Below are positions 1 through 25,562 of a DNA stretch of 41,553 nt, piece by piece (position 1 is the stretch's first letter; each line of letters starts with the position of its first letter). The notes under the pieces are model-generated. The model was not told the DNA's origin. It saw only the letters and a program-made list of their open reading frames with translations, and did no database searches. Source of the stretch: Gemmatimonadota bacterium (lineage in GTDB: Bacteria > Gemmatimonadota > Gemmatimonadetes > Gemmatimonadales > Gemmatimonadaceae); contig VGVM01000018.1 in NCBI GenBank assembly GCA_016874035.1, positions 1 through 41,553 of the forward strand. The letters run 5' to 3'. A program made the position numbers and the translations under genes.

Positions 1-638
1 TTCATCGCGACCCGACTGATGCCAACGCCGATCTCTATCGCACGCTGGCACCGCTCGCGGAGCGCCTGCGTCCCGCGCCGATCATTCGCCCGGACTTTCC
101 CGGGATGAATCGGGAGCTCGGCTTCGCCTGCGACGCCGGCGCCGAGTCAATCCGTGCGTGCCCGGAGCAGTGGGGCCTGGGATCGTCGCACCCGGCGATG
201 ACCGAGCTGGCCCTGGCCTGCGCTGAACGCGGACTCGCACTACACCTGACAGTGCGGTACGAAGACCTGCGGCAGCGGCACCGTCTGGACACGGCTGCAG
301 ACCTGCCCGCGGCCACGGTGCGTGCGCTCGCGCGCGCCGGCGGTGATGCGTTGCGGCTCGTCGTCTCGGCGGCCGGGCGCGACATGATCGAGGAGACGCA
401 CTGGGGACTGACACCCGCCGAGCAGCGGCGCGTGTACTGGGACTTCACGTGGGTGTGGGGTCCGCCGGAGGACCACCTGGCGCACTTGTTCCGCAGCATC
501 GGCTCCGAACGATTTGTCTTCGGTTCCCAATGGCCGCTCCGGCTGGTGCAGGCGCCGATCGCGAACCTCGACTTGCTACCTGATTCGGTTCGCGAGCCGT
601 CCGGCGGCATCCGCCTCGGCAATCCGGCAGTTCGGTAG
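1..638 (+). CDS. Amidohydrolase family protein, 3' part (5' end outside the window)
   Basis: The reading frame is open from the left edge and ends with TAG, so only the C-terminal ~211 residues are visible. They read like the second half of an amidohydrolase-2 type metal-dependent TIM-barrel hydrolase. A segment LAPLAERLRPAPIIRPDFPG is followed by a strand-helix repeat, an internal WDFTWVWGP motif, and near the end FVFGSQWPLRL, which resembles the conserved 'FGSDWP'-type element that follows the last barrel strand in this superfamily. The metal-binding HxH motif would lie upstream, outside the window, so the substrate cannot be judged. No signal peptide is visible because the start is missing. 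The next gene begins 18 bases downstream on the same strand, so the two are probably co-transcribed. Family assignment is moderately secure; the exact function is unknown. Confidence 0.6.
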   Translation, partial: HRDPTDANADLYRTLAPLAERLRPAPIIRPDFPGMNRELGFACDAGAESIRACPEQWGLGSSHPAMTELALACAERGLALHLTVRYEDLRQRHRLDTAADLPAATVRALARAGGDALRLVVSAAGRDMIEETHWGLTPAEQRRVYWDFTWVWGPPEDHLAHLFRSIGSERFVFGSQWPLRLVQAPIANLDLLPDSVREPSGGIRLGNPAVR

Positions 639-22502: not shown

Positions 22503-22562
22503 CGAATCCTCGAGTCCCAAGAAACTAGGACGGGGACCGAGGATTCGAACCCTCGGTCCCCG
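22503..22562 (-). promoter_or_regulatory. Leader of the flavoenzyme gene with competing hairpins (possible terminator/attenuator)
   Basis: On the minus strand segment 1 (CGGGGACCGAGG) pairs perfectly over 12 bp with segment 2 (CCTCGGTCCCCG) around an 8-base loop. Segment 2, extended 5' to CGAATCCTCGGTCCCC, can instead pair with segment 3 (GGGACTCGAGGATTCG, 22503-22518) over 15 bp with one bulge. The two folds exclude each other. There is no long U-tract; the simplest alternative is a terminator for the upstream HEAT gene. Confidence 0.5.
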
Positions 22563-22591
22563 CTATTTGCGTACCTTCGCTCCCCGAGGGA

Positions 22592-23494
22592 CTACTCGCG
22601 CTTGTCCAGCATCCCCTTCAGTGCATCCTTCACCCGCAGGTCGTCTGACCGGGCCAGCGCCGTGATCGCCCGCCGCCGCCTGGCCACGGGCTCCGTCGGT
22701 GAACTCGCCAGCGCGAGCGGCCACGTCGAGTTCTCCGACCCACCGGCGTTCGCCAGCGTGTTGATTACCGCGTCGCGATCGCGATCGAGGTTGAGCGTCG
22801 GGTAGAGGTCCCGGAGCAGCTTGTAGTCCGCTCCCGTGGCGTAGTCGCCGCCAAGTCCGCGGATCAGCTCCGTGCGCACCTCTTCGGGCAGGTCGTTGCG
22901 ACGCACCGCGGTGCGCGCGAACTGGCGGGCGCGCGGGTCCCCGCTGCGCGACAGCGTCTGCATGGACTGCTTGGCCACCCAGAGGTCGGCATCCGATGCA
23001 AAGCCGATGAGCGTCGGGATGCCTTCCCCGCGGTTGAACCCGGCCACCGTAGTCAGCGCATGCTGCCGGATGTTCTCGCCCTCATCGCGGTTCCGCACGA
23101 TATCATTCAGCGCGCGCGCGGCCGCTGCGGCACCCACGCCACCTTGCTCGGAGCGCCGGCGCGCGAGCCACGTGATCGCGCTCCGTCGGATGTCGCGCGG
23201 CCGACCCTGATCGCGCGCGATCGCGAGCAGCGCCGTGGTCACGGTCGCACTGTCGGCCAGCATCGCCGGTGACAGCGCCTCGCGTGCCGGTCGTCCCTCC
23301 GCGCTCGCCGCAAGCGAGAGCAGGTAGTCCACCGCCTCCTTCGCACTCACGGTGCCGAGGTCCGGGCCGGACTCGGCGTCACGCACGAGCGGCCCGGCAA
23401 ACGTCTCGACCTTCACCAGCTCGCGGCCGGCCCGCGTCAACACGACCCGCACCGGACCGCGCGCGCATTCAATGGACCGCTGTCCGTCACTCAT
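22592..23494 (-). CDS. HEAT-repeat protein, downstream piece of an interrupted gene
   Basis: These 300 residues are mostly tandem HEAT-like helical pairs (IRRSAITWLARR, IRQHALTTVAGF, ADLWVAKQSMQTLSRSGD, RRAITALARSDD). The N-terminal ~60 residues (ECARGPVRVVLTRAGRELVKVETFAGP) are a beta-rich module that makes better sense as a continuation of the exported piece encoded directly upstream in the same frame. The frame between the two is open except for one TAG at 23504-23506; the ATG at 23494 would start a product lacking the signal peptide. HEAT repeats bind other proteins; exported HEAT proteins beside ECF sigma genes recur in Gemmatimonadota (from memory). Function is unknown. Confidence 0.7.
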   Translation of the reverse strand: MSDGQRSIECARGPVRVVLTRAGRELVKVETFAGPLVRDAESGPDLGTVSAKEAVDYLLSLAASAEGRPAREALSPAMLADSATVTTALLAIARDQGRPRDIRRSAITWLARRRSEQGGVGAAAAARALNDIVRNRDEGENIRQHALTTVAGFNRGEGIPTLIGFASDADLWVAKQSMQTLSRSGDPRARQFARTAVRRNDLPEEVRTELIRGLGGDYATGADYKLLRDLYPTLNLDRDRDAVINTLANAGGSENSTWPLALASSPTEPVARRRRAITALARSDDLRVKDALKGMLDKRE

Positions 23495-23503
23495 AAACCC
23501 GCT

Positions 23504-23716
23504 CTACGACGTCGTCTGATACCAGCCGTCATCGTCCACTCTATAGAACGTCTGCCCGTTCCCGCACACGCCGCTGCGCGACGCAAAGTTGAACTGCACC
23601 GGTCCATCCGGCGCGGCGTTCACGCGCCGTTCGAGCGACTGCGCGCCGGCCGTGCCGGTTGTGCATGCGACCATCGTCGCAGGGACCAGCACTTTCACCC
23701 AGGATGCGATGCGCAT
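23504..23716 (-). CDS. Signal-peptide piece of the interrupted HEAT-repeat gene
   Basis: A strong Shine-Dalgarno (GGAGG, eight bases before ATG 23716) starts a 70-residue frame with a clean signal peptide (MRIASWVKVLVPATMVACTTGTAGAQ) and the mature start SLERRVNAAPDGPVQFNFASRSGVCGNGQTFY. It ends at TAG 23504. The downstream HEAT piece continues in the same frame three codons later. A CAG (Gln) to TAG change would join the two into a 374-residue exported protein with two Cys that could form a disulfide (VCGNG and IECARG). The start lies three bases after the preceding gene's stop, so it belongs to the sigma-factor operon. As it stands this piece would be a short secreted peptide. Confidence 0.65.
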   Translation of the reverse strand: MRIASWVKVLVPATMVACTTGTAGAQSLERRVNAAPDGPVQFNFASRSGVCGNGQTFYRVDDDGWYQTTS

Positions 23717-23719
23717 GGC

Positions 23720-24469
23720 TCAGTCCTCCGGACGGTCGATCAACTGCAGGATCATCCGCGCGGCGCGTGGATCGTCCTTCTTGCTCGACAGCGCTTCGAT
23801 CGCGCGGCGACGCAACTCGGGGTCCGTGCCGTTCTTGGCGATGTCGCCCAGCTTGTCCACGGTCTCCGGTTCCTTGCGACTGCCCAGCTGGCGGATGATC
23901 TCCGAGCGCATCTGCCGCTGGCCGGTCTGGTCGTACAGGCGGTTGAGCGCGGCGATATCCGCGGCCTGGCCGATCCGGCGCATGGCCTCCACACGCACTT
24001 CAATGGGCTCATTCTCGTTGTTGACCAGCGTCGTGAACCACCGCTCGTTCTGCGTGCCGCCGATCCGCGACATCGCGCTGATGATCCGCGAGCGGATGCG
24101 GGCGCTCTCGATCTTGCCGTACAGCCCCTGCAGCCACGCGACGTCTTCCTGGGTCGCCTGGTCCGGTTTCAGGGCATCGAGCGCCGTGATGCGCAGCGAT
24201 TCGGGCGCATCGCTCTTCTCGACGATCGCCTTGATGGCCGCGCGGGCGCGGGGCGTGCCGTTCGAGGCCAGCGCGCCGATCACCAATGAGGCGGCGGCGA
24301 ACTGCCACACCAGCCGCCAGTCGCGCGCGGGCGCTCGTCGCACGGCAAAGGCCTCAGCTTCTATGCCGCGCCAGAGCGCATCGGCGTCCGGGGCCCGGGG
24401 CACGCGATACGAGTCGCGCGCTTCGGCCAGCAGGGAGTCCAGCTGTGTGTCGTTATGTTCGTTCGTCAT
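23720..24469 (-). CDS. Anti-sigma-like membrane anchor fused to HEAT repeats
   Basis: A 249-residue protein whose ATG overlaps the sigma-factor stop (ATGA), a sign of translational coupling. Residues 1-50 (LDSLLAEARDSYRVPRAPDADALWRGIEAEAF) look like the cytoplasmic part of a Gemmatimonadota-type anti-sigma factor: acidic, helical, with no zinc motif. Residues ~53-68 (LVWQFAAASLVIGALA) form one transmembrane helix. From residue ~70 to the end there are about five HEAT repeats (PRARAAIKAIVEKSDAPESLRITALDAL and onward). The topology would put HEAT repeats in the periplasm and the sigma-binding part inside. From memory, this HEAT region resembles the C-terminal half of a longer exported HEAT protein normally encoded separately, so an in-frame deletion fusion is possible. 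The product would be a one-piece sensor/anti-sigma protein. Confidence 0.75.
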   Translation of the reverse strand: MTNEHNDTQLDSLLAEARDSYRVPRAPDADALWRGIEAEAFAVRRAPARDWRLVWQFAAASLVIGALASNGTPRARAAIKAIVEKSDAPESLRITALDALKPDQATQEDVAWLQGLYGKIESARIRSRIISAMSRIGGTQNERWFTTLVNNENEPIEVRVEAMRRIGQAADIAALNRLYDQTGQRQMRSEIIRQLGSRKEPETVDKLGDIAKNGTDPELRRRAIEALSSKKDDPRAARMILQLIDRPED

Positions 24470-25176: not shown

Positions 25177-25204
25177 TTGATCACGCTTCGCGCCGAGCGT
25201 ACAA
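25177..25204 (+). promoter_or_regulatory. Possible promoter overlapping the start of the coiled-coil gene
   Basis: TTGATC (25177-25182) and TACAAT (25199-25204) are 16 bases apart, close to the sigma-70 consensus. The -10 overlaps the assumed ATG, so if the promoter is real, translation would have to start downstream (TTG 25210 or GTG 25231). Confidence 0.25.
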
Positions 25205-25485
25205 TGAGATTGGCATCCAACTTCGAAGCGGTGGACTCAACCTACCGGAACGACCTGATCCGCCTGAACGACACCAACTACGCGCGATTCGATGCGAAGG
25301 TGGAGCAGCGCTTTGCGGAACAGGACACGCGCATCGAGCGTCGGTTCGCGGACGCCGAAATCCGGTTCGCTGCCCTCGAGATCAAGCTCGAAAGGCGCTT
25401 CACGTCGCTCGAATCCAGCATCGCCGCACTCGACGCTTCGGTGGACAAGCGCATCTCCGACGCCAAGAACTCGCTCATCATGTGA
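25204..25485 (+). CDS. Coiled-coil protein cut off before its membrane anchor by in-frame TGA
   Basis: The 93 encoded residues (MRLASNFEAVDSTYRND...) form a heptad-rich coiled coil with repeated RFA/RIERRF units (FDAKVEQRFAEQDTRIERRFADAEIRF, LERRFTSLESSIAALDASV). The frame ends TGA at 25483. The next 16 codons, in the same frame, encode MVGLLIANAAIGAILR and then TAG at 25534. This is the C-terminal transmembrane helix that tail-anchored coiled-coil proteins of this type carry, and a TGG (Trp) in place of TGA would restore a 110-residue tail-anchored protein. TGA is followed directly by ATG, so a separate tiny peptide could be restarted. The family resembles small DUF1640-like coiled-coil proteins but I cannot name it. 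Start choice is uncertain. Confidence 0.6.
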   Translation: MRLASNFEAVDSTYRNDLIRLNDTNYARFDAKVEQRFAEQDTRIERRFADAEIRFAALEIKLERRFTSLESSIAALDASVDKRISDAKNSLIM

Positions 25486-25562
25486 ATGGTCGGCCTCTTG
25501 ATCGCGAACGCGGCGATCGGGGCCATCCTGCGCTAGTTACGGCTTGGCATGGCGCGGGCCGC

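Follow-up and report, generated by a model that had tools for sequence, protein, structure and literature searches.

Does the gene coupled to an ECF sigma factor gene in this Gemmatimonadota contig encode a genuine fusion of an anti-sigma membrane anchor to HEAT repeats, or does it mark the place where two neighbouring genes were joined by accident? The window, which is the whole stretch of 41,553 nucleotides analysed, carries a 249-aa ORF that overlaps the ECF sigma ORF by 4 bp at the latter's stop. The sequence-only reading of this locus had offered two explanations, a one-component sensor and the scar of a deletion. We conclude that the apparent fusion is probably a deletion scar, joining two neighbouring genes of a decaying operon in one genome. 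The features of the locus are as follows.

22592-23716, minus strand: HEAT B, split; a single frame in which a TAG codon (23504-23506) yields a 70-aa signal-peptide ORF and a 300-aa ORF
23720-24469, minus strand: chimeric ORF, 249 aa; segment and membrane helix (residues 1-65), then HEAT repeats (residues 66-249)
23720-24274, minus strand: putative HEAT A remnant, the C-terminal 184 codons of an exported HEAT-repeat protein, its first ~422 codons gone
24273-24276, minus strand: putative deletion junction, placed by comparing the nucleotides on either side with those of G010
24275-24469, minus strand: putative anti-sigma gene remnant, the N-terminal 65 codons, encoding the cytoplasmic part and most of the membrane helix
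24466-25164, minus strand: ECF sigma gene, apparently intact (Pfam Sigma70_r2, 5.5e-16; Sigma70_r4_2, 1.2e-13)
25177-25516, plus strand: small coiled-coil gene on the other side of sigma, with an in-frame TGA at 25483-25485

The ORF, Pfam and AlphaFold agree that the sigma-coupled gene encodes a helical segment and one transmembrane helix followed by HEAT repeats, as had been described. The most hydrophobic stretch of the protein is residues 53-69 (LVWQFAAASLVIGALAS), with a Kyte-Doolittle mean of 1.75 that is slightly below or near those of homologous anti-sigmas (1.85-2.39), and HEAT_2 matches four stretches across the remainder (E=5.4e-19). AlphaFold predicts helices at residues 3-20, 29-40 and 51-70 and then, starting at residue 73, a HEAT array made up of helices only; the mean pLDDT is 77, the first two short helices being of low confidence and the HEAT array well predicted. 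A fold search with the chimera returned generic HEAT/alphaRep-type matches only. The sigma ORF, whose true start may lie downstream of its first GTG, encodes a protein that shares 72% identity with its counterpart in the nearest relative (G010).

Comparison with relatives shows that the two parts of the protein belong to different genes. There are several lines of evidence. First, when the whole protein was searched against 61 genomes (its own and 60 relatives), most matches began at residue 61-66 and reached the end, and in ~12 of the 61 the N-terminal residues gave a match of their own, on the same strand and 1-3 kb farther upstream. Second, the gene order in relatives is ECF sigma, anti-sigma (~205-215 aa), HEAT A and, usually, HEAT B, where HEAT A is a separate exported protein of about 450-690 aa. 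Third, anti-sigma and HEAT A, here of 484-690 aa, are distinct genes in 16 loci at the genus, family and order levels; at seven loci from farther afield in the class, sigma, anti-sigma and HEAT A likewise follow one another as separate genes, with HEAT B next in six, and anti-sigma and HEAT A are separate in 23 of the 23 relatives read as a single locus. Fourth, the gene that immediately follows sigma in the nearest relative (G010/L034) encodes a 207-aa protein, and residues 1-65 share 52% identity with its first 66 residues and 32-50% with the anti-sigmas of other relatives; residues 66-249 share 70% identity with positions 421-603 of HEAT A in G010, a separate protein of 603 aa, with about 30-50% identity between the HEAT A remnant and other relatives. 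The halves thus match two different adjacent genes of the same operon, with order and orientation kept, which the sequence-only reading had itself named as the sign of a deletion, and the deletion scar put forward there is strongly supported.

Intact HEAT A consists of a signal peptide, a coiled coil (102-165), a YbgF/BamD-like TPR region (TIGR02795, E=1.7e-9) and a HEAT array; HEAT B consists of a signal peptide and a HEAT array. The intact operon on JARIET010000111.1 (L032/L034), for example, has the same four genes in the same order and on the same strand as the window locus, and the pieces left in the window are 52-73% identical to it; the window differs from that operon by the absence of 1,743 bp and by an in-frame stop within HEAT B. 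The arrangement sigma - anti-sigma - HEAT A - HEAT B is kept across the class (L034, L035, L036, L037, L061, L067 and others). Our search of the literature on ECF, anti-sigma and HEAT proteins in Gemmatimonadota found no description of this operon.

The junction lies after residue 65, at window position 24275/24274, so that the passage into HEAT repeats is direct, as had been proposed, but occurs ~3 residues earlier than the residue 68-70 first suggested. Its position is ambiguous by ~2 bp (GC is present on both parental sides), and there is no long repeat. Measured against G010, which as the nearest relative is about 70% identical, the missing 1,743 bp are divisible by 3 and correspond to 141 of the 207 anti-sigma residues and 422 of the 603 HEAT A residues; what is kept corresponds to anti-sigma residues 1-66 (window 1-65) and HEAT A residues 423 to 603. 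On the anti-sigma side the cut falls inside the membrane helix, before its conserved Gly-Arg end, and on the HEAT A side at residue 423, within a predicted helix (414-425); on neither side is there a domain border at the junction. The anti-sigma has lost its conserved periplasmic part, including the motif around LLLDSPxxxDxRxxxLLEDLELVLAQ, and HEAT A has lost its signal peptide, coiled coil, TPR region and first seven HEAT helices.

Full-length homologues with the same junction would have spoken for a real fusion. Among the matches listed from the 394 genomes of the class, 177 of which gave matches, the fused junction is seen in the window only. Two candidates were rejected. One match, in G245, spans query residues 3-246, but this is the L033 contig, on which anti-sigma and HEAT A are separate ORFs. 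A natural fusion was also suspected in G033, where an anti-sigma match was initially absent; translation gave separate genes in different frames.

These observations bear directly on the proposal of a one-component sensor, in which residues 1-45 would hold sigma while the periplasmic HEAT repeats sense a ligand. The ORF is in frame and coupled to sigma, the topology is plausible, the chimeric helix (51-70) is predicted to run straight into the HEAT array, and the pieces do not show accelerated evolution. Against this, the junction occurs in none of the relatives listed and falls within two structural elements rather than at a domain border, the anti-sigma has been stripped of its conserved periplasmic domain, and the adjoining HEAT B and coiled-coil genes are broken too. 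We therefore regard the sensor as highly improbable. The related idea that the deletion itself gave rise to a working membrane-bound sigma inhibitor with the HEAT array as its sensor, i.e. a newborn one-component anti-sigma sensor in a single lineage, seems to us highly improbable as well.

The neighbouring genes carry lesions of their own. The two HEAT B pieces match one intact protein of 365-384 aa in relatives of the same genus and nearby; the site of the TAG is occupied by sense codons in relatives, and the gene is intact in all close relatives. In the coiled-coil gene the TGA replaces a Trp of the homologues just ahead of the C-terminal membrane helix. (This gene is also ~16 residues shorter near its N-terminus than its homologues.) Several lesions within ~3 kb would fit either a decaying locus or poor consensus quality.

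The latter possibility is part of a different explanation, namely that the assembler skipped ~1.7 kb and that base errors account for the nonsense codons, the draft being probably metagenome-derived. The draft genome comprises 191 contigs, at least three lesions fall inside ~3 kb, the junction shares just 2 bp, and a leftover fragment of 1.7 kb could have fallen under a binning length cut-off. However, assemblers rarely skip unique sequence without reads backing the join, the junction holds no long repeat, and the missing parts are nowhere else in a bin that is 99.5% complete. Indeed, when the genome was queried with HEAT A and the anti-sigma in their intact G010 forms, nothing came up beyond the window remnants, HEAT B and noise. 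This makes it unlikely that a mis-join left a fragment in some other part of the bin; a misassembly that left the missing part on another contig was rejected on the same search. We consider an assembly or consensus error unlikely overall, and infer that the event took place in the DNA itself.

Nor was accelerated evolution detected in the remnants: in relative-rate tests against G010 with three outgroups, none of the remaining segments showed an excess of changes (all p > 0.08). The remaining segments have dN of about 0.2-0.4 and dS of 0.7-1.3, with dN/dS < 0.5. Since the remnants evolve no faster, the lesions and any decay can only be recent. The operon is absent from most of the genus, and the anti-sigma N-terminus is confidently found in just 5 of 18 genus genomes, which indicates that the operon is dispensable.

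Taken as a deletion scar, the locus can be accounted for as follows. The ancestral locus would have comprised the ECF sigma, a single-pass anti-sigma (~210 aa), HEAT A and HEAT B, and a deletion of ~1.74 kb would have run from the codons of the anti-sigma membrane helix to the inside of a HEAT A helix. The frame would have been retained by chance (about 1 in 3), giving the chimeric 249-aa ORF, and with the additional nonsense codon in HEAT B the operon looks recently inactivated and decaying. Such an event resembles ordinary pseudogene formation by in-frame deletion in that the junction is within both frames, is confined to one genome and has a second lesion adjoining; it differs in that the frame is kept in the window, so that a protein could still be made. 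That product is presumably non-functional, or at best a blind membrane-anchored inhibitor of sigma. Several points nonetheless weigh against a scar: the frame and the membrane topology survive, the remnants evolve no faster than those of G010, and the junction is known from a single genome.

The assignment of residues 1-65 to an anti-sigma deserves separate comment. The natural reading, from the constant position after sigma, the single membrane helix and a conserved motif (LDxLLxDAxRxYRxPPxxPxDxIW), is that they are part of one. The earlier suggestion that residues 1-50 are of anti-sigma type thus holds as far as operon position and weak profile matches of the relatives are concerned, but finds no direct match in the window protein itself, which matched none of the anti-sigma models. 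Among relatives there are matches, all under cut-off, to NCBIfam CnrY/NccY (NF033790, E=1e-4), to NCBIfam 'antisigma' (NF052375, three of 12 relatives, best E=2e-4) and to Pfam CnrY (one of 12, E=0.06); a profile of the anti-sigma N-terminus matched nothing significant among solved structures in the PDB. There is no cysteine in residues 1-65, which are thus not of the zinc-type class I (HxxxCxxC), and no zinc anti-sigma Pfam match in the window or relatives. The closer likeness is to the CnrH-CnrY (class II) type, in which CnrY binds sigma by a two-helix mode (PMC7406223): the gene is coupled after an ECF sigma and encodes a short two-helix cytoplasmic segment and one membrane helix. It is unlike that type in that the window copy lacks a periplasmic part and the profile matches of the relatives fall below curated cut-offs.

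These findings dispose of an attractive but false example of a new sensor architecture, replacing it with what is probably an ordinary accident, and bring into view an intact operon, conserved throughout the class, where an ECF sigma/anti-sigma pair is accompanied by two exported HEAT proteins. The periplasmic HEAT proteins of that operon are a more sensible place to seek a signal-sensing role. Finally, a perfect hairpin (22530-22563) lies right after the HEAT B stop, with a tRNA T-arm-like sequence (GAGGGTTCGAATCCTC) within a longer stem. No tRNA was called at this hairpin, which scored as terminator-like; it may represent either a terminator or a remnant derived from a tRNA.
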